Positions 1 through 47,600 of a DNA stretch of 64,000 bases are shown piece after piece. A program made the translations under genes and the position numbers. This stretch comes from Phymorhynchus buccinoides (Eukaryota > Mollusca > Gastropoda > Neogastropoda > Raphitomidae): assembly GCA_017654935.2 (NCBI GenBank), contig CM065712.1:16694319-16758318 (forward strand), in the 5' to 3' direction. The notes under the pieces are model-generated. The model saw only the letters and a program-made list of their open reading frames with translations, did not search any database and was not told the origin of the DNA. Positions within the stretch are counted from its first letter, which is position 1. Each line of letters starts with the position of its first letter.

Positions 1-9794
<9,794 letters not shown>

Positions 9795-25619: not shown

Positions 25620-25747
25620 TCATCTCTCCATGAACCCCGGCATGGGGAAGTCCTTGGCGAAGGACTGCACCTCAGCTTTCAGGGACTGCAGCTGGGAGGT
25701 CGCCTCTGAGTTCTCCTGGACGAACGCCTTGAACTCTCTGAGGTTTT
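25620..25747 (-). CDS. SHMT2: SHMT last exon
   Basis: 128 nt: [41 protein letters not shown], then TGA at 25622-25620. Acceptor cttttcacag. It matches the family C-terminus (FxxxFPMPGF). Confidence 0.94.
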
Positions 25748-25802
25748 CTGTGAAAAGAAGCAGATCAATCAATCAATCGATCAATCAATCAATCGATCAA
25801 TC

Positions 25803-25862
<60 letters not shown>

Positions 25863-25985
25863 ATCGATCGATAATCGATCGATCGATCTTATAAGACCGC
25901 TCCCTGATAAGACCTCATTTTGGATGATTTTTGAAGGTCTTATAAGGGAGGTTCCACTGTAATGGATCGATTGATCGATTGATCG

Positions 25986-26038
<53 letters not shown>

Positions 26039-28450
26039 GATCGATCGATCGATCGATCGATCGATCGATCGATCGATCAATCAATCAATCAATCAATCGA
26101 TCCATTACAGTGGAACCTCTCTTATAAGACCTTCAAAAATCATCCAAAATGAGGTCTTATAAGGGAGGGGTCTTATAAGGAGGTAATTTTAATACTTGCA
26201 AAGGGCAATGTGTCAAAGTAGGTCTTATATGGGAGGGAGTCTTATAATGGGAAGTCTTATAAAGGAGGTTCCACTGTAATCAGTTAAAGGCCTGCCACAC
26301 TACATACGATTTGCTGTCAATGCGATGCGATTGTGACGATGCGAGACATGATTCATGCGACATACTTCTGTCTAAAAAATAATTCTACTACTTTGGCTCT
26401 ACATACTCAAGTAGTCCCAATGCATGAATTTCACGTGAATCATGACCCGCATCGTCACAATCGCATCGCATTGACAGCAAACCGCATGTAGTGTAGCAGG
26501 CACTTATCCGCATCGCAATGATTTTGAATTATTCAAAAAACTCACAAATCACTCCAGTCATACACACAAACAAAACATACATAAACAAAAGGAGAAATGA
26601 AAGATTACAGGTTTTTACTTCAGGTTTAGACATAGGGAAGTGGTAGATCAGACTTTTTTTATATAGAGACTTTAGATAGAAAAACTCTCTACACCGATTG
26701 GTTCCCCCACAACGAACCACTACAAAAGCAAAGCCAGGGGCAAAATTGTGGTCTAAGGGAGTGAAGCGAGTTTAGAAGTGAACAAGGTATGGTGTGCACA
26801 CAGATTTACTTCCCTTGAAGCAAACGCATCAAATTGACAGCTATCAATGAATTCTGGACATATATGTCTGGAACGACTTGATTGAGTTAACTATCATTGT
26901 GACACACCTATCAATCAATCATGCAATCAATGAACAGACAAAAAACTACAACATAAAACCGCAGCTGATACACTGTTCTGGGTTCTTTTCCACGAAGGAA
27001 GCCTTGAATTCATTCAATAATAATAATAATAATGATTATTTACATAGCGCCTATTCTCTGACTTAGGGCTCTAAGTGCTTTACATATTTCATGCAAACAC
27101 AACATAGAATATGCATTATCTTATGCAATCAGATTATGACGAATGTACATACATTTTACATGAGTAGAATATAGAAAAGTACATATCGTTGCTGCCCGAC
27201 GCTAACCGTGTATTTACACAATCAGTGATTTAACAGGAGCATCAAAAAACATATTGTCGCCTGTTACAAAGTCAATCCCCATTTGATATACGCTTGACCC
27301 TTCTTCTTTACCGATGAGTAAACATGTGACACAATAAAAGTTGCATTAACACCCAAACTTTTCGTGACAATTCAGTTACACGGTTAGTCACAAAGTTAGT
27401 GCATTGTTCTCACAATGGGAGATACGACAGCTGCCGGCAGTTACACGATTAGCGTGACCAGTTACACGCTTATCGCGTCAAAACCAGCAACAACCCGCCA
27501 CATACACAATTATTTCCATGGCATCATGTGACAAATTTGAGCATTTTCATTGGTCGCAGACACAAGATATTTATAGAAGACCTGCGTGAGGTCACTGGAA
27601 GGAGTTTCAATAAAAAATCTATTTTTGTCAAATTTTGTAGATACACGGTTAGCGTCGGACAGCGACGATATACACAAAGGCACAAAAACGCATATCTTGA
27701 AAAAGGTACACAACTTACAGAAACACACACACACACACACAGACGTGCGCGGTCTCTGTGAATTAACTCTTTTAGCACCATGGGCGAATACAATCACCCA
27801 AGACATTACTCTACAGTACACTCCCACCAAATGCAAAGACATTCACTGCCAAGTATTTGGTATATTCAAGTCACAGAAACTTATCTCTATGAAATTCAGG
27901 CTGCTCTCCCCCGGAGAGCGCATCGCCGCAAGCGCAGCGCCTACCCAGTTTTTATTTTAAATTTGGGGGGGGGGGGGTGGAGGTGGAATCCTTCACAATT
28001 TCTATTAATAGAAACAAAGACACAATCAACAAACAAATCAATGGACGAAAAAAAACCAAATAAACAACTTAATGGGTAAATAAACAAAAAACAAAAAAGA
28101 TGGGAAAAAAGGGAAAACGAGAAAGAGACAGTCTGGATTTAAAAAAAATTCAACAGCAACAATAATTTATAACTAGTATGTCACTGTGTGTGTATGTATG
28201 TGTGTGTGTCTTTATGAAATTTGTAAATTGGAAAAAATGTTCAATCAAAAAATAATAGAACTGTAACAGTTGGTGTGTGTGTGTTAGTGCGTTGTGTGTG
28301 TGAGTGTGTTGTGTGTGTTCTGTGTGGGTATATCTGCTTGCATGTGTATGAGTGTATGCATACGCAGGAGAGATTGTGTTCGGCTAGAGGGGGGGGGGGG
28401 GGGGTGTGTGCGAGCATGTGTCTGTGAATGCGAGTACACGTGTGTGTTTT

Positions 28451-28500
<50 letters not shown>

Positions 28501-31500
28501 ATGTGCACATGTTTGTACAAGTGTATGTTTGAGTAAGTTTGTGTGCGTTTCAGTGAGAATGTGTTTTCTGTGTGTTTGATTAAATGTGTGTGGGTATGTA
28601 TCTGTATGTCTGTGTGCAAGAACGCGTTCACTCTCGTGCGTGCACGTACGTGCGTGTGTGTCTGTTTTGCGTGTGTGTGCTGTTGTGCGTGTGTGAGTGT
28701 TTCAATGCTGATTGTAAAGTGCTTTGTGCTCGATAAAAAGCGCTATATAAATATCCATTTATTATTATTATTATTATAACAGGATCCAGTGCAGATCTAT
28801 AAAAAAAACAAAAAAAACCAACAACAATGAATCAGGCATCAGAATAGTTTGAAGTCCAATTCTCTGAAAACCACGGTAAAAGGGCCATCAAGGCCTTTGA
28901 CTGAAGATTGATTTTTGATTGATTTAAACTCAAGTCTGTTCACACAATGGTGATATTAATTGACTGAAGAGGGACAACACAGAAACCAGTTCTGAACAAC
29001 ACCAAAAAGGCTTAATATAGTGAGAAATCACTTTAAAATGCTATTTAACACAAAGGATAACGCTCGATAAAAAGGCAAAACCTCTGACAGAAATTCTTAA
29101 TCCTCTGACAATTCTGATGCCTGATGAATGTACTCACTGGTCTGTTTTTGAACGTTCACAGCAATCTGAACTCCTCTGTCCAACAGTTCCACTACGCGGT
29201 CAAAGTCTGCTTCCTTGAAGCCGCGACTGGTCAGGGCGGGACTTCCTGTCGACAACATCATCATCGTTATCGATATCATCATCCTTATTGTCACCATCAT
29301 AATTTAAATTATCATAACCGTCATCATCATCGTCTTCATTACCATCGTCAATATCATACTCATCATCACCATTGTAGTCATCAACGCTGTCATCATTTTG
29401 AGTGTCATCATCATCATTATTGCAATTATAGCATTGTCTTATTTTTTTTTAATGTTGTACTTCACTGACCTAGTCGCAGCCCCCCGGGCGTCATGGCGCT
29501 CTTGTCGCCGGCACACGTGTTCTTGTTGACGGTGATGTAGCACAGCTCCAACACGCGCTCCACGCGCGCCCCGTCCGTGCCGTGAGGCTTCAGGTCAACC
29601 AGCACCAAGTGGTTCTCCGTGCCCCCTGGGAAGGGGAGAGACAAAACATACCATATATACATGGATGCAACTTAGAGAAAATCTAACAACAGGCAAGGCA
29701 GGGGTCCAGGCCCCTGGCAGGGTACAGTTGGGGGGGGGGGGGTCAGGGAGGCAACGCCCCCTGAAACTGAAGAAAAAGCAAAATCATACTCAATTTGAAG
29801 CTTATTCCAGGCTTGTACAGTGAGAATTCAACACTTTTCCCCCCTTAAACTTTGAATCAAATTTTTTTGGTGCTCAAAATTTTGAAAAACAGGCGCGGCC
29901 TCGTGTCCGAGGCCAGGTTGCATTCATGGACATAAGGCGATGCAACAAACTTTGAATTTTGAGTCAAGTTTGGGGGGTGCATCTTATAATCAGGTGCGCC
30001 TTATGGGTGCAACTCCCAAAAATGAAAACAAAAATGAAAGGTAGGGGTCCAGGAACCCATGGCCCCGGCAGGGTCACAGGGGCAGCGCCCCGTCGGACGA
30101 TTCAGGGGGGCAAGTTAAGAGAGAGATATAATGAGATAGACAGACAGTTAAAATGATAGACAGACAGTTTGAGTTTGATAAGCCTTGTAAAATTATTACA
30201 TTGCCTTTGTAATCTTCCAAGATAAAACAAACTAAATTCCAAACGCCCCAAATTGCTTGTGGTCCTCATTGTCCATCATGCAGACGAAGCTGTGGGGAAC
30301 AGAAAACGACCTTCAACAAACCGCCCATTTCATCAAAACCATCAAAATTTGGGTTTGATCAACCGGCCATCAGCACTTTTGGAACGCAGAAGAAGAAGCT
30401 TGTGGTTAATTTTGTTGTTGATCAATTAAAAAACACTGAAGTTCATTTTCTGGTAAAATTAAAAATACTGAAATCAGTGTAAAAATGAAAGAGTAGCACC
30501 CATGTCTGAGTCTGTAAAATACGGTACAGTACCCCCCCCCCCCCCTCCCCCCTCCCCCCTGGATGAAAGTCAAACATTCTCTCAATCCTGAAATAACACC
30601 TTTCAACATTCTCTGGATCTTCCCAATCCTGAAACAGTAAAAATAATGTTCAATGTGTGTCTGTCAGGATAGGTGGGGATAGTGTTGCAGTTGCATATTG
30701 TCGGTGAAATAAAAAAAAACCTTGCATCTCAATTTTGGTAGATTTGAGAAAAATGAACCAAAATTTTTTTTTAATTAACTGCGTTGACACAATTGATTAA
30801 CTATGATGAATATGTTGTTCAAGACATTGCGAGTTTAGTCCTGCATTTCGTTAAAATTATTTTTAAAAAAACATTTTTAGACTTGAAAAGAACGAAGATA
30901 CAAGGTTTTTGTCCTTACAGGTTTTTCTTCTACAGTGGTACCCCTCTAATAAGACCTTGAAAGTGCGGTGAAAAAAGTCTTATCTGAGGGGTGGTCTTAT
31001 TAGAGGACCAAGCATCTTTTCCGAGTCGCCATACGCGGCACATACGCGGATTTTCCCGAATCCATTAAAAAAAATTTTTATGCTGGTCGTCACCTGTGCG
31101 TGTAGACATCGTCAATCTCGGTAAAAACGAACCGTTCTCATGTCGAAATTGAAGAATTTAATCAGCCATATCACGATCTGACCACTAAATTTCACCACTT
31201 TTATGCACATGTGTCATCACTGAGCAGTTTATGATCAAAGTGTGAACTGAAACAGTCGCGATCGTGTCGATCTTTACGAACTCTGTGCACACGTAAATTA
31301 TGCGAAGTCAACTTCCAAGTTGAAACTAGGTGATCGGTCATACTCCATAAGTTGGAACTCAGTGAATCAGAATGGTTTCACTTTACAAAAAAAAAGTTGA
31401 AAAGCAGCTCCTTTCCGCTATCAGACTGATAAATCGGCGTTAGTGTGTGCACTACAACTCTCGCTGAATGCAAACAATTCACAAAATCCGATAAATGAAA

Positions 31501-34500
31501 GCAGCTGGCGCATTAGCGTTTGCCGTGATTTCGTATCTGCGGTGTATGCGGCGCCATTTTGTCAGCCGAGTTGTATGCGCGGTAAAAGTTCTGTGTGTGC
31601 AAACTGTGACTAAAAATGAACTGCCACAGCGTTACTTTGTCATGTTTTGTGTTGTGTTGTGTCGTTGTGCATAATCCAGTATTTAGTAGGTCCGTTATGG
31701 CGAAGATTAGGTCTGTACTGTTATGTGTAGTTTGTGTGTGAGTGCAACATGGGCCATCGAAGTTGCCATCGGACCCGTTGCCATGACTTTCGATCACGAG
31801 TTCGTCTGCTTTTCATCGAGAGATCGATTTGCACGAACTTGACTGCAAAAAGATAAGATTGTGGTCGCATCTCAACCCCTGAAATCGGGTCGTAAGTCGG
31901 AACTCAGGAAAGTCGTATTTGCGGCATAGGATATATAGTGGAATGTGTTCGGGAAGAAAAAAATCGGTCGTATGTGAGGAGAAGTCGCATTTACGAGCGT
32001 CTTATTAGAGGGGTACCACTGTATTTTCACAACTTCATTTACCCCAGATAGAAAGTCGTTAGAGATACGAGCTTTTGGTGGAAGGTGGCGGGAAAAATTA
32101 GAGTTACTAACTATGTATTAAACTAAAAAATATAAAAAATTCGAGATACGAGGTTTTTGAATTTCACCGACGATATCTTTCATTTTGTTGCTTTGATACA
32201 TGAAAATACCATTTTTGTTGTTGAAACTTCCATAGCAATTCTTGCTGAAATCCTGGCATGTCTAAAACATAAACTAGCATTCTAGGACTATGACACCAAA
32301 AGTTATGACATAATCAATGACATCACACACCCATGGGGGAAGGGGATACAATAAAATGGGGGGTGCAACTGACAATAGGAAGCTCCTTAAAGTGCATGAA
32401 TCCCCTGAAGTCGGAGTGTGGCTGTCCACGTGGCAGGGTAATCAAAAACGCGTCATGTTCTCATCCCTAGCTGATGCACTTGTACCATAGTGTTCAAGTG
32501 CTTCTGTTGTTGAGATGATCCCTGGAGTCTTTTAGCCAGGGTACGACAACAACAACAAAGTGTGCAATAAACGACACTAACACGCACACCACTGACCTGA
32601 CACGACCTTGTACCCTCGTTGTTGAGATGATCCCTGGAGTCTTTTAGCCAGGGTACGCCAACAACAACAAACAAAGTGCGTGAAAAACGACACCGATGAG
32701 CACCCTAGTCACTGACCTTGTACCCTCGTCGCATCAACGCGTCACACATGAAAAACGACACTGATGAGCACCCTAGTCACTGACCTTGTACCCTCGTCGC
32801 ATCAACGCGTCACACATGAAAAACGACACTGATGAGCACCCTAGTCACTGACCTTGTACCCTCGTCGCATCAACGCGTCACACATGAAAAACGACACCGA
32901 TGAGCACCCTAGTCACTGACCTTGTACCCTCGTCGCATCAACGCGTCACACATGAAAAACGACACCGACGAGCACCCTAGTCACTGACCTTGTACCCTCG
33001 TCGCATCAACGCGTCACACATGAAAAACGACACCGATGAGCACCCTAGTCACTGACCTTGTACCCTCGTCGCATCAACGCGTCACACATGAAAAACGACA
33101 CCGATGAGCACCCTAGTCACTGACCTTGTACCCTCGTCGCATCAACGCGTCACACATGAAAAACGACACCGACGAGCACCCTAGTCACTGACCTTGTACC
33201 CTCGTCGCATCAACGCGTCACACATGAAAAACGACACCGATGAGCACCCTAGTCACTGACCTTGTACCCTCGTCGCATCAACGCGTCACACATGAAAAAC
33301 GACACCGATGAGCACCCTAGTCACTGACCTTGTACCCTCGTCGCATCAACGCGTCACACATGAAAAACGACACTGATGAGCACCCTAGTCACTGACCTTG
33401 TACCCTCGTCGCATCAACGCGTCACACATGAAAAACGACACTGATGAGCACCCTAGTCACTGACCTTGTACCCTCGTCGCATCAACGCGTCACACATGAA
33501 AAACGACACTGATGAGCACCCTAGTCACTGACCTTGTACCCTCGTCGCATCAACGCGTCACACATGAAAAACGACACCGATGAGCACCCTAGTCACTGAC
33601 CTTGTACCCTCGTCGCATCAACGCGTCACACATGAAAAACGACACCGATGAGCACCCTAGTCACTGACCTTGTACCCTCGTCGCATCAACGCGTCACACA
33701 TGAAAAACGACACTGATGAGCACCCTAGTCACTGACCTTGTACCCTCGTCGCATCAACGCGTCACACATGAAAAACGACACTGATGAGCACCCTAGTCAC
33801 TGACCTTGTACCCTCGTCGCATCAACGCGTCACACATGAAAAACGACACTGATGAGCACCCTAGTCACTGACCTTGTACCCTCGTCGCATCAACGCGTCA
33901 CACATGAAAAACGACACCGATGAGCACCCTAGTCACTGACCTTGTACCCTCGTCGCATCAACGCGTCACACATGAAAAACGACACCGACGAGCACCCTAG
34001 TCACTGACCTTGTACCCTCGTCGCATCAACGCGTCACACATGAAAAACGACACCGACGAGCACCCTAGTCACTGACCTTGTACCCTCGTCGCATCAACGC
34101 GTCACACATGAAAAACGACACTGACGAGCACCCTAGTCACTGACCTGACACGACCTTGTACCCTCGTCGCATCAACGCGTCACACATGAAAAACGACACT
34201 GACGAGCACCCTAGTCACTGACCTGACACGACCTTGTACCCTCGTCGCATCAACGCGTCACACATGAAAAACGACACTGACGAGCACCCTAGTCACTGAC
34301 CTGACACGACCTTGTACCCTCGTCGCATCAGCACGTCACACATGACATAACGACACTGACGAGCACCCTAGTCACTGACCTGACACGACCTTGTACCCTC
34401 GTCGCATCAGCACGTCACACATGACATAACGACACTGACGAGCACACTGGTCACTGACCTGACACGACCTTGTACCCTCGTCGCATCAGCGCGTCACACA

Positions 34501-37500
34501 TGGCCTTGGCATTGCTCAGCACCTGCTGCTGGTAGTCCTTGAACTCTGGGGTCATGGCCTGAGGGGTCAAGATCAAAGGGTCAAGGTTTGAATTTTTTAC
34601 ATTGCCTTGCTATATGTTAGCAAAAAGCCTAAAAAGGGCGAAAAATCAAACAAATAAAAACAATTCTGCTTACAGAAAACTTATGAATAGTGTAGAGGAA
34701 GAACAGCATGGTGATTTAACCCTTTCACCGCCAGCCATTTCTTAGCCAAAAAATACCATGAAATTTAACCTGGGTGTTAAACCATTGTGGTGCAAAAATG
34801 TGACATTGGCGGTGAAAGGGTTAATACAATCTTTAGTTTGTGATGATAAGTCAGTCAGCTTTCTGCATTACAAGCTCAAGTCTATAGTTATGGCAGACAT
34901 AAATCGCAATGACCGGCATTTGGACAAGCCAGATCAAGCCATCAATGGCCACATTTCAACAGAATGTTCTGTGTGTGGAAGAGTTGTGCTGTTAGCCAAT
35001 AACACAGTCAAAAAAAAAACAAAAAAAAATTCAACGAAAATACCCAGCACCTATTAACACCAAAATCCCAAAAAGATTTGACAAAAAAATGTGCATACGG
35101 ACACATAACAAGTAAATGAGGACAGGAGAAAGAGTTGGGGGGGGGATCTGTCGGGGTTGCAGAGCTGCGACTGTTTAGGCAGATCTTGCGTGCCTCACGC
35201 TTTGCCTGCGATGTCTCGATACGGTGCGCCTCGAAGTTGGTGGCTCCATTTGTTACTGACACCACGCCATGCTGGTCTGTTCTGTGCCAGGGTTTCCCAT
35301 GAGGAGACATTAACATGGGTGCAACTCCCCAAAAGGAAAAAAAACTGAAAGGCAGGGGTCCAGGGACCCATGGCCCCGGCAGGGTACAGGGGCAGAGCCC
35401 CGTCGGACGATTCAGGGGGGCAACTTAAGAGAGAGATACAACGAGACAGACAGCTAAAATGAGAGACAGTTTGAGTCTGATAAGCCTTGTAAAATTAGCA
35501 CATTGCCTTTTGTAACCTTCCAAGATAGAACAACTAGACTAAGTTCAAAACGCCCCAAAACGCTTGTGGTCAATGGTTTTTTTAATGAATTACAAAATAC
35601 TGAAGTTCAGTTTCTGGTCAAATAAAAAATACTGAAATCAGTGTACAAATGAAAGAGTAGCATCCATGCATCGATGTTGAAGTTCTGTAGGGACACTATG
35701 GGGAAGCAAACTGTAAAAAGAATGTACCTCCCTCAAGGCGACGGCCACGCCGGCAATCTGGTGTTCGTGGGGCCCCCCCTGCAGCGCGGGGAAGACGGCG
35801 TTGTTGATCTTCTTCTCAAAGTCGTACAGGATCTCCTTCCCAGTCTTCTTGTCCACCCCCTTCACCCCTTTACGGTAAAAGATCATCCCTGACCTGCCAG
35901 AAAAACAACAGTGGAACCTCCCTTGTAAGACCTTCCCTTGTAAGACCTTCCCTTGTAAGACCTTCCCTTGTAAGACCTTCCCTTGTAAGACCTTCCCTTG
36001 TAAGACCTTCCCTTGTAAGACCTTCCCTTGTAAGACCCTCCCTTGTAAGACCCTCCCTTGTAAGACCTTCCCTTGTAAGACCCTTCCCTTGTAAGACCTT
36101 CCCTTGTAAGACCTTCCCTATTAACTCACTGGAGTCATGACGGCAGATGTCTGCCATCACGGTCAGTCTCTGTTCAGGTCATGACGGCAGACAACTGCCA
36201 CCTGAATTTTTCCGATTATTTTAGCACCCACTACAAGTAACGCTATTCGAGGGAGCTGAAAGTCAAAGCACACTCATTCATGCTTCGATTGCTTCCCTTA
36301 GACCCGTATCTCACAGCCATTTGGGGGCTTATTTTAGCGAGTTTCATCGAGTCACTTAGCAACAGCTGTGTTCTCTACACAAGCAAAATGGCCAAACAAA
36401 TCGGAAATTCCATTTTGGATACTTTACTGAGCGTATTTTTTACACAAAGGAGATGAGTAAGCCCACTAACTGTGTGTGGCATTTTATTTAGTAGACTTGT
36501 GCCTTTCTTTTGCAAAGTATTGTTTGTTTCTATAATTATTGATTAATTATTTGGAAGCAATTTTTTTTTAAAGTAGCCTGAAACGTGCTATTCCTGGGGG
36601 TCGACGCGCATCATCTGACTGCATGGGTGCTCCTGGGAAATTTCCAAACTCCTGCAAGGCAGGGGTCCAGTGGCCACCCAGGCCCCGGCAGAGTGCAGGG
36701 ACCCTCCAGAGGGTTCCGGGGGGGCAATGCCCCCTGGAAGCTGAAGGGAAACAACAGTTTCCAATGTAATTGACAGCATCTCGTTGCACTTTCACTTCTG
36801 GTTAAACTTCATGACCTCTATAACCGGCAAAATGCATCCTCTCAAATTCTCGTAATCCCGCAACTCTGGCTCCAGGCCAAAAACAAAATCCTGAAAGCAG
36901 GAGCATCCATGTGACTGCAACTCCACTGAGTTAAAGGCCACCAGATCAAATGTCAAAATCACGGGTTTTCCCTCTTATAGCTGGAAATAAATCTTGTTTT
37001 GACCAAGTCTGACTCCCATATAAATGGCCCCAAATTGGAACCGACACATCAGTTTAAAGAGCAGCCTCAATTTGAATATGGAGAAAATCGTATGTGGGTC
37101 ACAGCAACCCAGAAAAAAACAAGGGACTTAATCGTGGTGCGTCACTGGGTCTTTAAAAATACACTGACGCACCACGATTAAGTCCCTTGTTTTTTTTTCT
37201 GGGTAGCTGTGACCCGCATACAGATGTCCCCAACTTCAAATTGAGGCTGCTCTTTAAAATTATGTTTCGGTTTGAATTTGGGGGCATTTATATGGGACAT
37301 CCTGAAAGCAGGGTCATCCATGTGACTGCGACGCCAATGAGTTAAAGGCCACCAGATCAAATGTCAAAATCACGGGTTTTCCCTCTTATAGCTGGAAATA
37401 AATCTTGTTTTGACCAGGTCTGACTCCCATATAAATGCCCCCAAATTCAAACTGAAACATAATTTTAAAGAGCAGCCTCAATTTGAAGTTGGGGACATCT

Positions 37501-40500
37501 GTATGCGGGTCGCAGCTACCCAGAAAAAAACAAGGGACTTAATCGTGGTGCGTCAGTGTATTTTTAAAGACCCAGTGACGCACCACGATTAAGTCCCTTG
37601 TTTTTTTCTGGGTTGCTGTGACCCACATACAATTTTCTCCATATTCAAATTGAGGCTGCTCTTTAAACTGATGTGTCGGTTTCAATTTGGGGCCATTTAT
37701 ATGGGAGTCAGACTTGTTCAAAACAAGATTTATTTCCAGCTATAAGAGGGAAAACACGTGAAACCCGTGATTTTGACACGTGATTGGGTGGATCTTTAAC
37801 CCTTTCACCGCCAATGTCGCATTTTAGCACCACAGTGATTTAAATACCAATGTCACTAAAAGGCATCAAATTGGGGTCTATTACCCACAGACCCTATTGT
37901 CTTAGTTTTGGGAAGTAAGGATAGACCTTATTATATATATGTCACAGAAGAATCCCAATATTGCAGATAGATTTAATTTGTTCTCTACCCTAGTAAAATT
38001 TAATGGACATTTTTGGCTGAAATATGTCTGGCGGTGAAAGGGTTAAGAGACTCCCTCAAAGATGTGACCCACAAATTTTTCACCAATTTTCCCCCTTCTT
38101 ATCCGGACTACCGAGTGTTCACCTTCCAATCTAAGACCTTGAAAAATCATCCCCCAAAGGCCTGAATAGGGAGGTTCTACAGTGAAACAATATCAAACAA
38201 CAAAGGACAGGAAAGGACTTAACCCTTTCACCGCCAAAGCTGCATTTTAGCACCACAGTGATTTAACACCTATGTCACTAAAAGGCATCAAATTGGGGTC
38301 TATTATCCAAAGACCCTGTTGTCTTAGTTTTGGGAAGTAAGGATAGACCTTATTTTATATCTGTCACAGAAGAATCCCCGATACTGCAGATGGATTCTGT
38401 TCCCTACCCAGGTAAATTTCATGGACATTTTCGGTTGAAATATGGTTGGCGGTGAAAGGGTTAATGACTTTTTTTTCTTCTTCTTCTTCTCCTCCCATTA
38501 AGCATCCACAATCAACGGTTTGATTTTTGGTTACAGTTATGGTCGAGGTCGGAAGGTCAAGGGAAAAACCAAAACAAACAGGGAAAAACACCATACCGGT
38601 GCCAATCTACAAACGACATTGACCCAAATTTCCATTTGACATTGACATAAATTTCTGTAAGACCTTGACCCAAATTTCTGTTTGACTTTGACTCAGATTT
38701 CCATTGGACTTTGATCTAAATTTCCATTTGACATTGGCCCAAATTTCCCCAAAAAATTCCGTTTGACATTCACCTAACTTTCCATTTGACCAAAAAGATG
38801 TTGACCGAAACTTTCATTTGACCTTGATCAAACTTTCCCCCCCAAAAAAATAATTGACTCCCCAAAATTTCTATATGTATCCATGACCCCGACGTTCGTG
38901 CGACCTTGAACCACTAACCGTGGCCCACGGAGGGTCTTGTGCGTGGTGGAGGACACGACGTCGGCATGGTCGAAAGGGGAGGGAATCACGTCGCCCGCCA
39001 CCAGCCCAGAGATTTGGACCTCGACCCAAAGTTCCATTGGACCTCGACCAAATTTCCATTTAACTTTGACTCAAATTTCCATTGGACCATGACCCAAATT
39101 TCCATTGGACCTTGACCCAAATTTCCCCCTAAATTTCCGTTAGACCTTGACCCAAATTTCCATTTGACTGACCTAAATTTCCGTTAGGTCATGGCCCAAA
39201 TTTTCATTTGACCTTGACCCAAACTTCCATTTGACATTGACTCAAATGTCCCTAAAAATTCCATTGGACCTTGACCCCCAAAAAAAGATGTTGACCCAAA
39301 TTTCCATTCGACCATGATCCAACATATAAAAAAATTTGACCACACAAAATTTCAATAATGTATCCTTGACCCCAACGTTCACGTGACCTTGACCCACTGA
39401 CCGCGGCCCGCGGAGGGTCTTGTGCGTGGTGGAGGACACGACGTCGGCGTAGTCGAAAGGGGAGGGAATCACGTCGCCCGCCACCAGCCCAGAGATGTGG
39501 GACATGTCCGCTAGCATCACCGCCTTCACCTCGTCACAGATCTGCAGCACACACAAACACAGGGGCGCGTGCACAGGCACACAGATTTACACAAACATGG
39601 GTATGAGTACAGGCATACACTGATACAGATTTATAACATACACAAACACAGGGGCGTGTGCACAGATTTACACAAACATGGGTATGAGTATAGGCATACA
39701 CTGATACAGATCTATAACATACACAAACACAGGGGCGCGTGCACAGGCACACAGATTTACACAAACATGGGTATGAGTACAGGCATACACTGATACAGAT
39801 CTATAACATACACAAACACAGGGGCGCGTGCACAGTCACACAGATTTACACAAACATCACCGCCTTCACCTCGTCACAGATCTGCAGCACACACAAACAC
39901 AGGGGCGCGTGCACAGGCACACAGATTTGCACAAACATCACCTCGTCACAGACCTACAGCACACACAAACACAGGGGCGTGAGCACAGGCACACAGATTT
40001 ACACAAACATGGGAATGAGTACGGTACACAGATCTACAGCACACACAAACACAGGGGCGCATGCACAGGCACACAGATTTGCACAAACATCACCTCGTCA
40101 CAGATCTACAGCACACACAAACACAGGGGCGCGCGCACAGTCACACAGATTTGCACAAACATCACCGCCTTCACCTCGTCACAGATCTACTGCATGCAGT
40201 CACACAGATTTGCACAAACACTGTTGTTTTTCTTTCCCAATGATATCTCCCGAACCGCTTGACAGAATCGCTTCAAATTTTGTGTGGTGGTGTGTCACCC
40301 TGCGAGGAAGGCATCCGTGCATAAATTACCGCTGCCATGACCATGACCTTGATGCATGACCTTGAAAACCGAAAATCTTTAAGGGGTCATAACTTCCACA
40401 CCGTTGGTCTTAAGAGTCTTCAAACTTTGCATGTAGGCGCTTTGGCTTATGGCCGTTCTGATGATGGCATACTGATCAAGGTCAAGATGAAGTCTCAGGG

Positions 40501-43500
40501 AGATCGGTAGGCCTTGATTTCTTTTAAATTTTGTTTGCTATTGAACCCAAGCAAAGTTATAGTGTAATGTGTGTATTCACTGACTTTCGTTTTCTTTTTC
40601 TTTTCTTTCTCCTCTCTTCTGCTTCTTGTGTTCTATTACCGTATTTTACGGACTATAAGGAGATACTTTTTTCCTAGACTGAGACCCCTGCACCTTATAA
40701 TGTGACTGACCATATAGTAAGAAACTATAACAACAACATCTAATTTTGTGCAACATTTTCGGGGGGTGCCTTGTAGTTCGTAAAATACGGTACTTCTATA
40801 TAAAGAAGTTGGTCACCACCACAGAAGAAGAAGAAGAAGGAGAAAAAGAAAGACTTGCGCAAACAAACAAACAAAGGTTGTCATTCCTTTCACTGCCAAT
40901 GTCGCATTTTAGCACCACAATGGTTTAACACCCATGTCATTAAAAGGCATCCTATCCAGACCTGTTATCTGAAGACCCTATTTTCTTAATTTTGGGAGGT
41001 AAGGACAGGCCTAATGTTATATATGTCACAGAGGAATTCGCAATATCGCAGAAATATTTTTTTCTCTACCCAGTTTTGCTTAATGGTATTTTTTTGGCTG
41101 AAACATGGCTGGCGGCGAAAGGGTTATAGCAACATGGAATCAGGCAGAGACAGGAACCCCGGCCCACTCACCTCTCTGTACGCCTTGTAGTCGAGCAGTC
41201 TGGAGTAGGCCGTGGTGCCCGCGATGATCAGACGAGGCCGGAACAAGATGGCCGTCTCCCGAAGCTTCCCGTAGTCGATGAAACCCGTCTTTGGCTGGAA
41301 ACAAACATAATATCGTCGGTGAAATTCAAAAACCATGTATCTCGATATTTTTGTGTGTTTGTTTTTGGTCCCATCTTCTGGGCCGTACAGTGGCGGTGCT
41401 CCCACGCCGCTCATTCCGAGTCCCAACTCGCAGCCACACCTCCACACATAAATATTTCTTTAGTTAGTCAGCTCTCTCATTTTTCCCGCCACTTTCCACC
41501 AAAAGCTCGTATCTCTAACGACTTTCTATCTGGGGTAAATGAGGATGTGAAAATAGAAGAAAAATTCGTTAAGTCCCAAATTCATATCTAGTTAAGGACA
41601 AAAACCTGGTATCTTCGTTCTTTTCAAGCATAGAGAAAATATGTTTCAAAGTAATTTATTTTTACTGACTTCTTTTGCTTTAAAGTAATTTTAGCAAAAT
41701 GCAGGACTAAACTCACAATGTCTTGAACAACATATTCATCATAGTTAATCAATTCTGGTCAACGCGGTTAATTTTCAAAGTTTTTTTCATTTTTCTCAAA
41801 ACTACCAAAAAGTGAGATACGAGGTTTTTTAATTTCACTGACGATATCCAGTTCACATTACTGGAGAAAGGTGGCAGAGTGGTCAAGATGTTCGCCTGCC
41901 AAATGTAATGCGTGACTGCAGTGTGAATGACCCGGGTTTGAATCGCGGCCTCCTCGCCCTTTCTTTCTAGTTCGACAGGAAAATCGAACTGAACGTCCAG
42001 TCCTTCGGATGGGGACTTAAAGCTTGTCTGACCCGTGCGCTTTACGCACGTAAAAATCTCACGGCAGTTGAAAGTCGATAAGAGCAGGGAGAAATCCCGC
42101 TGCCTGGTATGGCCAAATTGATAGCTAGGTTTTAATACTTACAAAGAAGGGCAATGTCTCGGAGAAGTGGGTCTGATGTGGGAGGGAGTCTTATAAGGGA
42201 GGTTCCACTGTGGTCTGTCAAATAATCATTCATGCACACAGACAGAGAAACGCACAGCCCTCGTTCCCATGCCAATGTACTTCTGTTCTTACAGAAGTGT
42301 AAGTACTTACAAAACAAGAGGCAAAGCCTTCAAGGCTCACTCGAACAGGCACATGTGGGACAACAACAAACAAAGATTGAGGGGGGGGGGGGGGTCTAAA
42401 GTACAAGACTGCCAATAAAACTTAAAAGTACAAATGAAACTATCGTTAATGGATACAACTAAAAAATATATAAAAAAGTGCCCGTGCCGAGAATCAGACC
42501 CGGAACCATTAGCATGACAGACAGACACTCTACCAATGAGCTATGGAGGCTTTCAGTGTTGATGAGTTTCTTAACTCATGTTGCCTGTTGAATACTCTCT
42601 AACCCACTAATCTAAAATGTTATCTGTTTGCTATCTGTTTACAGTGTTGTTTTAAGTATTTAATTATTCAAATAATTATTGTTTGAAAGCTTGCATACAC
42701 ATCTATATGTGCAACATTTGAACAATATGACTTCTATTTCCCGAGAAAATGCCAGCGTTAAAGTTAGGAGATTAGACCACGGACGCAACACACATACATA
42801 CAACCGAACAACTATCTATAGACTCCCTTCGTGTTAACAGTTCATACAAAGCATTGAAAAATGGGACTTTGGGTTCAGAGGGTTGATCCAGTAGAACCTC
42901 CCTTATAAAGACCTCCCATAATTCAGGTGTTAACCTGAATTTCTCTTTTGTTGATATTAAAGCATACTTGAACTTGAACTTCGTTAACACAAGTGAGCCA
43001 AAACGGTGACTTACGTCCAGTCTGTAGGGCATGGACTCGAAGTACAGCGACGTAGCTGACACACGCTTGGTGTCCGTCATGAACCCATGAGTCAAACTGA
43101 GAAGAAAAAACACACGAAAATTAAACATTAGAGAGTGTGAAAACACTTTTAATGTCAGACAAACACACACACTGAGGGGTGTGTGTGTGTGTTCAGGAGT
43201 GCAGCGATGATGATGATAATAATAATGATGATGATGATGACCACAACAACGACAGCGACTCGCTGTCCCTCATCTGGCAACTCCATCAGCATATGTGTGT
43301 GCGTGTGTGGGGGGGAGTTGTGGGGGGGAGGGGTGTTCAGGAGTGCAGCCATGATCATGATGATAATGATAATGATGATGATGATGACCACCACAACAAC
43401 AATGACTCACTGTCCCCCATCCAGCAACTCCATCAGCATATGTGTGTGCGTGTCCCCGGGGGGGTGTTCAGAAGTGCAGCCATGATGATGATAATGATGA

Positions 43501-44614
43501 TAGCGACAACATGAAAGGTGGCAGAGTGGTTAAAACGTTCGCCTGCCAAAAGTAATGCGCGACTGCTACGTGAGTGACACGGGTTCGAATCCGCGGCCTC
43601 GCCCTTTCTTTCTAGTTTGACAGGAAAATCGAACTGAACGTCGAGTCCTTCGGATGGGGACTTAATGCTAGTCTGACCCATGCGCTTTACGCATGTAAAA
43701 ATCCCACAGCAATTGGAAATCGGCAAGAGTATGGAGAAATCCTGCTGCCTGGTATGGCTAAATAGATAGCTAGATTTTCCAAGTGTGTCCACACACCCTC
43801 CTTACCCTGTGCCTCCCCCCATCCCCCCTAAAAAAAACAAATTGGGTAGGCGCTGCACTTGCGGCAACATTATCTCCGGGGGAGAGCAACCCGAATTTCA
43901 CAGAGATAAGTCTCTGTGACTAGAATATTCCAAAGAATCAAGACAAAAACAACAACAACAATGACAACGACAACCACTCACTGTCCCCCATCCGGCAAAT
44001 CCAGCCCCATCAGTCTGTCGTGGGGATTCAAGAGCGCCGTGAACACTGCGAAGTTGGCGGGACTGCCAGAGTAAGGCTGCACGTTCACACCCCATTTCTC
44101 GGGGTCCAGGCGGAACGCTTCAAGCGCCCTCTGCTGACAGAGACGCTCCACCTCGTCGATGTGAATGTTGCCTCCGTAGTACCTGCCAACAAAACAAACA
44201 AAAAACACGCGGCTAAACAGTGGATGTTCCGCCCAAGTCAGGATTAATTTGGGTCTTTATGGCTGCCCACATGGCGGGGTAATCAAAAACAGGTCACATA
44301 CGTAATGTTCTCATCCCTAGCTGTTACATTTGTACCATAGTGTTCAAGTGCTTCGACTGTTGGGGCAATCCCTGGAGTCTTTAACTTAAGCCAGGGTACG
44401 ACAACAAATAATTAATAAAATAATTAATAAAATAATAAATAATGAATAATGCTTACTTAGCGCATAATCTTACTAAGCAACTCAATGCGCTTTTCACTCA
44501 CCATTCGTACAAACATTTCTAACAAACTGGTTCACGTATCCTCACCATACATCTCTATGAAAATGAATACATTAGAGAATGCATTGCATATAATCATAAC
44601 ACAACACACTAACA

Positions 44615-44646
<32 letters not shown>

Positions 44647-47600
44647 CCCCAACCATCCCCTCGTGTGTGGGGGGGAGTTGAACATAACAATAACATGGGT
44701 GCAACTACACAAAATGAAAAAAACCGGGGTCTAGGGGTAATGTCCCCCTGCAGCTGAAGAAAAAAAAAGATTTATGAAGGTATTTTAGGCTGCTTTTTCC
44801 ACAATTTATACAAATGCTTAATAATGTTTTGACAATCAGAATCTTCCATATAATTAAGGCACATCTGTCTACATGATCTTGTAGAGTCTAAAATCTAATA
44901 TTAAAAATGAACATAGCAATAAATAATACTACAAAATTTTAACACTCAAAGTCTTCCCTACCTGGCCCCAGGGTAGCCCTCGGAATACTTGTTGTTGAGA
45001 CATGAGCCCACGGCCTCTAGCACTGCGCGACTGGCAAAGTTCTGCAAAACATGACATGAGTTAAATAGTGGTGACACCTTGACCACCGTAAATCACCACT
45101 AAAACTTAACCCCTTGACTGCCATATAACGTATCACGTACTGACTCGATGACATCACTGATGACGTCATCAGATGAAGAGGAATAACTCTGATATGCTGG
45201 CTTAACACAATCAAGAGTTACATCCCCAGACCATTTTGCCAGATTGGCTCTATCAGTTGTCTTTTTCATGGCATGATTTGTCCAATGATTTTTTCTTTCA
45301 TTTTCTCTGGCAGTGAAGGGGTTAAAGGACTTTAACACTTCCATGACGGGAGCCTTCAAATGAAGGCCTAGCCTGGAGTTTCCATTGAATGACAAGACAA
45401 TTCCACCCAGTAGCGACTTTTCAAATACTTTTTTAAAGGATGTCAAACATGGGATTGCTTTATTTAGCTTACATTTAAATATATAAAATTTAGCCAATAG
45501 TATGATCAGATCCATGACTTTATCTGTTTTTTGGTTTTGTTTCCATCCTAGCAAAACTAGGGTTTCTGAGAGACTAAAATTCTGTGTATGGTTGCAAACG
45601 TCATGAATCCAAGAAATGAAGTTTGTCCAAAATACCTGAGCATGGTTACAAATCCAAAAAAGGTGGACTTAAGTTTCATCTTCTATGCCACAAAAAGTAC
45701 ATGTTTGAGAATGAGGAATTTTACATAAAAACAAGTATCTTTCAGTGGGCAGGAGTCTATGTAATACTCTCAACTGAAACCACCGCAGTTGACAATCAGT
45801 AGCAGTTTTGAAATGCTTTATGAATATTTTTTCCCATTTCAAGACTGCCTGTGGATATCGCTGTTGCCATTTTGTTACACTGGGTGGTGTAGTATCACAG
45901 TCTGTCATACTCTGGTATATGGTTTTAGTAGGTGTAAATTTAATTAAACTCCAAACTTTAGAATAGTCATTAGCTGAGTTATTACACAATTCTATCTCCA
46001 GGGATTCTCTATACTTAGTCACAGCTCTAACTATGCCACTGTATACAAGAAAGTTCGTTATAACCATAGGATATGCATTTCTAAAGCTATTAAACGTTAG
46101 AAAATTCCCTTCTGTGTCAACAAGAACTTTAATGGTGTTAATGTCATTTTCTGACCATTCTCTTAAATATACTGTTTTCATATCCCTGATGATATTGTTA
46201 TTGAAGTGAATACTTTCAGCATGAAATTCTTTGTGATTTTGTAGGCTTGCATTTTTCATACATTATTTTATAATGTTTTAATACATCTACCCAAAACAAG
46301 TTATCTGGAGCCCGGAGTTTCAATCATAGGTGATACGGTCTAAGCAGCAGGCCTGCCTACCTCCTGTCGCAGCTTCCAGGAACAAACTGCTTAAAAACCA
46401 GGGACAGAGACTTATTTCCAGGGGCAAACATCGCGATGTCATGCACCATGAAATATATTTCGTGATCTAGCAAAATGTCTGTGACTCTGGATACTTTGGG
46501 TAGTCTTTTTGTTGCTTTTCGGTGCCAACATGCTTCTAAGTTCTATACTCAAGATTCTTTTGGTGTTCAGTAACTTAACAGTAAGAAAATTTCAACAGTG
46601 CCTGCATTGTCTTGGGTGTTCCTGTGTTCAATAGTGACGTCAGCTAACAAGACAAGCCACTACTCTACAAAATTTTGATTCTACTCAGTTTCCAGGGACA
46701 CAAAAGTTGATTCCAGGGACAGGGTGCCCGTTTTAACTGTTTCCAGGGACAAATACCCCTTAGTGGGGATGGTAGGCAGCCCTGGTTGAGTAAAGGGCCT
46801 ACAACTGAACTACACTAAAACCTCCAAGCAGCATCAAACAACTCTGAGGCGATGAGTTCCAGGCAGTGGGCCTGACTGACCTTCTCCCTCTCTCCCTCTT
46901 CACGATAGCCATCAGCTCCCTGTCTTGCCCAGGATATATCCCTACTCTACACTAAGATCACAATACCTCAGAGGCGATGAGCTCCAGGCTGTGTGTCTGT
47001 CTAAACTTCTCCCTCTTGACGACAGACATCAACTGGCTGCCTTGCCCAGGGCACATCCCTACTCTACACTAAGATCACAATACCTCAGAGGCGATGAGCT
47101 CCAGGCCGTGTGTCTGCCTGAACTTCTCCCTCTTCACCATGCTGGCCATCAGCTGGCTGCCTTGCCAAGGGCACAGCCCTACTCTACACTAAGATCACTT
47201 TACAATACATCAGAGGCGATCAGCTCCAGGCAGTGTGTCTGCCTGAACTTCTCCCTCTTCACCATGCTGGCCATCAGCTGGCTGCCTTGCCAAGGGCACA
47301 GCCCTACTCTACACTAAGATCACTTTACAATACCTCAGAGGCGATCAGCTCCAGGCCGTGTGTCTGTCTAAACTTCTCCCTCTTCACCATGCTGGCCATC
47401 AACTGGCTGCCTTGCAAAGGGCACAGCCCTACTCTACACTAAGATCACTTTACAATACCTCAGAGGCGATCAGCTCCAGGCAGTGGGCCTAACTGACGTT
47501 CTCCCTCTTCACCATGGACATCAGCTGGCTGCCTTGCCCAGGGTACATCCCTACTCTACACTAAGATTAATTAACAATACCTCAGAGGCGATGAGCTCCA

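Follow-up and report, generated by a model that had tools for sequence, protein, structure and literature searches.

Tandem arrays over exon borders in the snail Phymorhynchus buccinoides: one SHMT splice donor in 27 copies, and exon borders as probable centres of tandem duplication

Why should the end of a coding exon, together with its 5' splice site, recur dozens of times down the intron that follows it, and is such a structure a regulator of splicing, a stage in the making of new exons, or a trace of the way in which repeats arise? The question is raised by a stretch of 64,000 nucleotides from the gastropod Phymorhynchus buccinoides (the window, that is, the whole stretch analysed; C33:16694319-16758318, in a genome of 2.12 Gb and 3962 contigs), in which exon E8 of a serine hydroxymethyltransferase (SHMT) gene is followed by a long minisatellite. 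The array is probably a 'mirage' minisatellite of the kind described in amphioxus, whose unit spans the exon-intron border so that exon end and splice site are repeated along the intron, and it would go back to tandem duplication centred on exon borders. This kind of array is already known; what seems surprising is its apparent commonness in this genome and its centring on splice sites.

The exon borders of the SHMT gene (Table 1) have been placed by eye, in phase, at GT and AG, and the first exon, with the start and the targeting signal, has not been found in this mapping. The reading frame is open across the mapped exons, and the hand-joined protein is 89% identical to the nearest SHMT, that of Babylonia areolata. 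E8 follows the acceptor CCCCTCAG, and its in-phase join to the exon at 29625 gives GYKVVSGGTENH, which is present in the Babylonia areolata protein. The exon joins match that protein without any array-derived insertion, in a comparison made at the protein level.

On the array behind E8, direct reading, Tandem Repeats Finder and a regular-expression scan have been found concordant. The copy in the exon itself carries the anchor GAGGGTACAAGG at 34479 (direct reading and scan) and is followed by four full-form units GTCGTGTCAGGTCAGT with anchors at 34400, 34321, 34243 and 34165, at spacings of 79, 79, 78 and 78 bp. Beyond them come the 21 anchors of the short units, from 34087 to 32727 at a spacing of 68 bp, and all of these have lost the 10 nt GTCGTGTCAG. 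Tandem Repeats Finder reports 32681-34460 with period 68, 25.6 copies and a 97% match, as well as 34074-34502 with period 78. Outside the exon the window has 26 further copies, the 25 units and a distal relic, each of which retains GTCAGT, so that the E8 edge, with the exon, is present 27 times in total. A sequence-only reading of this DNA had described an exon edge and its donor turned into a 25-unit minisatellite, with four units of 79/78 bp and 21 of 68 bp that all keep GTCAGT, and this description has been confirmed; its count of 26 tandem copies of one 5' splice site was right for the units and the exon and missed the 27th copy, the relic.

The relic is undeleted and stands 110 bp beyond the last short unit, flanked by two copies of an intron stretch of ~60 bp at 32680-32618 and about 32564-32506; an earlier duplication of ~110 bp would have had its distal end here. 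The 10-nt deletion sits between two GGTC repeats, AAG[GTCGTGTCAG]GTCAGT, and slippage is probably its source. The array may then have formed in four steps: a segment of ~110 bp over the E8 border would have been duplicated, of which the relic at 32617 remains, a 78/79-bp unit over the same border would have been duplicated several times, one unit would have lost the 10 nt, and the deleted unit would have expanded by unequal exchange or slippage, with an outcome that differs between the window and a second SHMT copy described below. The order suggested earlier, from duplication through deletion to the spread of the deleted form, finds support in the exon and the distal relic, which are both full, and in the two gene copies, which both carry both forms. 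A further suggestion, that spacer variants form blocks as in unequal exchange, is weak. From proximal to distal, the spacer types of the 21 short units read RRGAAAGGAAAGGRGGRGAAG (A=CTCATCAG, G=CTCATCGG, R=CTCGTCGG), and blocks are visible, but they do not rise above shuffled series (12 runs against a mean of 14.3, P=0.19; longest internal repeat 6, P=0.096), and we have given them up as proof of unequal exchange.

The exon copy cannot accept the 10-nt deletion because of the resulting frameshift, so that purifying selection would hold the exon-proximal end and retain the full-form block seen there in both gene copies, and the distal part would turn over. Splicing is expected to be normal, as the true donor would be transcribed first and close an exon of normal size. 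The frame beyond this donor runs GGT CAG TGA, an immediate stop, and any use of a decoy would therefore truncate the protein directly after the normal exon end. All three frames of the array contain stops, 33, 33 and 36 of them in about 615 codons per frame, and its units, examined by eye, are without a good acceptor ahead of the repeated exon piece. On the simplest reading, the decoys would be ignored since they come after the true donor or, in acceptor arrays, before the true acceptor, and the array would be neutral.

The second SHMT copy, here called P2, lies about 121 kb away on the same 34-Mb contig and strand (C33:16.60-16.62 Mb), and the two regions are co-linear with aligned blocks that are 90-98% identical. 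In P2, 6 full units, 6 short ones and the same relic come after the exon, and in the unit at anchor C33:16607554 CTCAGT replaces GTCAGT (GCTCAGT), by which the donor is lost. The unit series of window and P2 differ in order and contain private variants. As both unit forms are present in both gene copies, the forms are older than the gene duplication or have been exchanged since, and their numbers have changed since. Two truncated SHMT copies have been found on contig C21 (3.68-3.71 Mb) as the facing arms of an inverted repeat (about 11 kb, 89-96% alike), and P2 and these copies are more similar to each other than to the window copy. A genome search with the E8 exon end has detected the array at the window and P2 only, at that search's sensitivity. 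In addition, a probable further acceptor-edge duplication has been noticed in an SHMT gene on C1, where the beginning of an exon recurs in part, together with a stop, just upstream of that exon (C1:46983477-46983560).

The E8 donor is not the only repeated edge of this gene; the E1 donor, the E3 donor, the E6 acceptor and the E6 donor also lie in arrays in the window. When each edge (40 bases per side) has been compared by blast with the four gene copies (window, P2, C21 minus, C21 plus), the counts are 6/5/5/5 for the E1 donor (7 in the window by tblastn), 3/1/1/1 for the E3 donor, 5/2/2/2 for the E6 acceptor, 2/2/2/2 for the E6 donor and 27/14/0/0 for the E8 donor, E8 itself not being found in either C21 copy by this blast of edges. 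The other 16 SHMT edges are single or absent in each of the four. Copy number differs between gene copies for four of the five arrays and is unchanged at 2 for the E6 donor; for E3, a gain in the window copy or one loss in the ancestor of P2 and C21 may each explain the counts. Close to another border of the gene, about 25 bp upstream of the E7 acceptor, a 15-bp minisatellite (TCCCTTGTAAGACCT, 13 copies) occupies window positions 35919-36119.

Beyond SHMT, exons matching chaperonin (PF00118) and myosin head (PF00063) have been drawn from this one genome irrespective of repeats. The 54 chaperonin matches gave 30 loci, of which 26 were kept; the four dropped are L018 and L022, whose long open frames were taken to mean that they have no introns, and L025 and L028, which copy L024 and L027. 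The 68 myosin matches supplied 18 exons, a first set of 8 from the top of the list and a second set of the 10 after them. L024 and L025 (C7:36026380 and C7:35956050) are two copies of a piece of a chaperonin gene at a distance of 70 kb, and one exon has almost identical edge arrays at its two borders in both; at the myosin locus L070 (C14:59942576-59944752) arrays abut the exon on both sides and end about 5-20 bp short of the splice sites. Arrays have been called by same-strand self-alignment (offset 25-700 bp, at least 40 bp, at least 70% identity), and an edge has been counted if an aligned copy spans it with 15 bases on each side. For the null, every array was collapsed to one unit, on the ground that, before any expansion, an exon edge occupies a single point of the DNA.

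Under this null, 23 of the 82 edges of the 44 exons lie in arrays where 6.7 are expected (binomial P 1.1e-7), in 14 of 43 acceptors and 9 of 39 donors, and 19 of the 44 exons are affected. For the first 34 exons the figures are 19/63 against 5.0 (P 2.5e-7). With units at least 90% alike, 14 edges remain against 4.6 expected (P 1.7e-4), and the result is unchanged when the low-complexity filters are removed. Collapsed coverage over the 44 exons is highest next to the splice site, with 39% at 0-15 bp and 35% at 15-40 bp, and reaches 18% at 40-80, 11% at 80-150, 11% at 150-250, 6.5% at 250-400, 10% at 400-600 and 8% at 600-900 bp; the ten exons read last give a noisier series in the same bins (30, 36, 21, 12.5, 21, 2, 13 and 8%). 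Of the 24 edge arrays found among the first 34 exons, 21 extend 38-116 bp into the exon and the remaining three extend further. Exon borders in this genome are thus likely to act as centres of tandem duplication, the E8 array being one of many. High GC content was considered as a driver and rejected, edges with arrays having a slightly lower GC content (46.5% against 49.7%, P 0.047, 34-exon set).

The splice signals within the copies are largely preserved. In the 34-exon set together with the four SHMT donors, 55 of 58 donor copies still have their GT, E8 contributing 26 of the 58, and 39 of 40 acceptor copies still have their AG. Core letters of acceptor copies are changed at 1 of 80 positions and neighbouring letters at 45 of 1080, too few to claim upkeep, and the corresponding comparison for donors is swamped by the E8 deletion. 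The GT and AG counts show no loss of signals such as selection against decoy sites would bring, a weak indication in arrays that are young and homogenised.

A number of points weigh against centring on exon borders. The splice borders come from phase-aware scoring with some choices by hand, the donor weights and the acceptor rule being taken from general knowledge: the L060 acceptor and the donors of L043, L044, L045, L059 and L067 were omitted, acceptors other than the top-scoring one were picked in L040, L057, L062, L068 and L070, and that of L033 is one of two ties. Repeats at the chaperonin loci and at the first 8 myosin loci had already been inspected before the exact edges were counted, so that the replication set consists of L064-L073 only, with borders likewise set with the repeats in view, and this set is weak alone (4 of 19 edges against 1.8, P 0.094). 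The binomial test assumes independent edges, which exons within a gene are not, and several sampled exons share genes (by position, L065, L066 and L067 with L062, L063 and L061). In raw, uncollapsed coordinates, noncoding coverage by arrays is 16% for the window and 22% for the sequence that flanks the chaperonin exons; the 4 of 21 SHMT edges counted in this way are no excess over that coverage, and the 20 of 60 chaperonin edges of a tolerant count are a mild one. A conserved exon copy perhaps makes arrays at exon edges easier to detect and longer-lived, and the hotspot claim is drawn from a single genome. The raw figures show that arrays are common in this genome generally; raw coverage, the null tried first, was replaced because long arrays are over-counted in it, and collapsed coverage is regarded as the right null. 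Random genomic controls were also tried as a null and abandoned, since six of eight 5-kb pieces consisted to 48-100% of N (the two readable ones have 39% and 31% raw coverage).

From the same observations a reading without any hotspot can be built, in which minisatellites arise evenly and edge arrays seem enriched since the conserved exon copy keeps old arrays alignable or refreshes its neighbours by conversion. The high raw coverage, the replication set and the similar unit size of edge and other arrays (median 123 and 106 bp in the 34-exon set) speak for it; the excess nevertheless persists among units at least 90% alike and without low-complexity filters, and coverage falls within 80 bp of the splice site, though an intron base at 15-40 bp should be under hardly more constraint than one at 300 bp. 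We regard this reading as unlikely, if well worth keeping in mind, and exon borders may be places where repeats arise. Far less probable is what had been suggested from the sequence alone, a landscape of decoy donors or a regulator of SHMT splicing with polymorphic length. Length does vary, with 27 and 14 copies in the two gene copies that have E8, and GTCAGT is kept throughout the extra window copies, but the number is not conserved, one P2 donor is lost, the same kind of array occurs at E1, E3 and E6 and in unrelated genes and affects both acceptors and donors, and use of a decoy would run into the immediate stop; the regulatory part of that suggestion is thus very improbable.

Slightly less credible still is a stage of intron gain or exonization, in which edge copies that still have their splice signals would turn into new exons or introns; such a model has been published for the globin genes of amphioxus (PMC3087553). 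The nearly complete preservation of splice dinucleotides would suit it, and the stops in all frames, the E8 units without a good acceptor and the agreement of the SHMT joins with the Babylonia protein tell against it. Tandem arrays are prone to misassembly, yet an assembly artefact is barely conceivable here, given that window and P2 carry different ordered unit series with private variants on one contig and that similar arrays recur at other loci.

If tandem duplication is indeed centred on exon borders, the cause could be sought in transcription or splicing. More tentatively, and as a possibility that we would not favour over its negation, the exon-intron junction of this snail might be a duplication hotspot coupled to one of these processes, through polymerase pausing, R-loops or exon-positioned nucleosomes. 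A large share of genes would then carry splice-site arrays at donors and acceptors, the spliceosome would cope with dozens of decoys of equal strength by position, taking the first donor and the last acceptor, and the arrays would be a standing source of new introns and exons. Should about a quarter of splice sites sit in self-arrays, they would amount to a natural experiment on two questions, the choice that the spliceosome makes between identical sites and the possible fragility of DNA at exon borders; mirages would turn from an amphioxus curiosity into a recurrent mutational process able to seed new introns.

Table 1. Exon-border arrays and related features of the window (positions in the window; a slash marks the splice border).
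Feature	Position	Strand	Remarks
SHMT gene, 11 coding exons	25623..47733	-	E1 47733-47581 to E11 25747-25623
SHMT exon E8 (100 bp)	34459..34558	-	functional 5' splice site CAG/GTCAGT at 34459/34458; phase 1 join to E9 at 29625
Four full-length decoy units (79, 79, 78, 78 bp)	34088..34458	-	exon end, donor and intron start; MCDVLM.. in first two
21 short units (68 bp)	32681..34087	-	10-nt deletion GTCGTGTCAG; donor AAG/GTCAGT
Distal relic	32506..32680	-	undeleted edge copy GAGGGTACAAGGTCGTGTCAGGTCAGT, anchor 32617; flanked by two copies of intron stretch
E1 donor-edge array	46833..47650	-	end of exon E1 (47733-47581), donor GAG/GTATTG and intron start; ~125-bp unit
E3 donor-edge array	43189..44022	-	exon 44182-43982; 3 edge copies
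E6 acceptor edge inside array	39515..40207	-	exon 39541-39402; 5 copies
E6 donor edge, duplicated	38615..39500	-	second copy 39013-38918, amid 23-bp repeats
TPR-gene exon (ODAD4/TTC25-like), acceptor-edge array	3283..3650	+	142 bp x 2.7; acceptor TTTTCAG/CTTTGCC taken as 3595
Probable donor-edge array of TPR-gene exon	3735..4228	+	163 bp x 3

Both arrays of the TPR gene in the window have been kept out of the statistics. Among solved structures, the best matches of the TPR protein are engineered TPR proteins, and the best natural match is ODAD4/TTC25 (8j07, E 1.8e-12). Elsewhere in the window, an in-frame tandem duplication of 57 bp, a period divisible by 3, is found at 8438-8556 in a long open frame on the plus strand (6633-9791).

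The closest known counterparts are the mirages of amphioxus, reported from Adh3, the globin genes Gb6 and Gb9, PGBD5 and troponin C (PMC3087553; PMC3902484); the original Adh paper is cited in that later work as Nucl Acids Res 2002. Donor and acceptor borders are both affected there, AG or GT is present in many units, units range from 10 to 160 bp, haplotypes vary in copy number (6 and 3 in Gb6) with somatic instability at Adh3, and splicing appeared normal in a reverse-transcription PCR test, the mechanism being called unclear (PMC3087553; PMC3902484). Among the literature matches listed, and as far as their accessible text goes, exon-border mirages appear only in the amphioxus papers; the same structure is absent from the consulted parts of a paper on cone-snail introns (PMC3862624) and of one on gastropod hemocyanin (PMC7931591), and in a nematode paper the word 'mirage' means a transposon (PMC7960049). 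A different relation holds to human duplicated genes, in which internal tandem repeats are described as modifying the copies, half of them reportedly changing the protein sequence (PMC2812944). There as here, minisatellites in segmentally duplicated genes differ in number between paralogs, whereas the mapped SHMT coding sequence is without an insertion.

In the snail, as in some reported cases of intron gain, tandem duplication copies splice signals. The RdRp gene of potato is said to have gained an intron by tandem duplication of AGGT-bearing exon segments, whereas the snail copies stand in an existing intron and no new SHMT intron is seen, with the intron positions of relatives outside the comparison. 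With the amphioxus mirages the snail arrays share a unit that spans the exon-intron border, a presence at 5' and 3' borders in several genes (SHMT, chaperonin, myosin) and instability of length, here between gene copies (27 and 14, 6 and 5, 5 and 2, 3 and 1, with one unchanged at 2). They differ in that splicing is read from the open frame and the GT and AG borders of SHMT alone, and in the gastropod host, the 27 copies of one edge, the several gene families within one genome and the measured splice-site excess. To what is known from amphioxus, the snail adds a new phylum, a very large array, a comparison between gene copies and a measure of the centring on splice sites.

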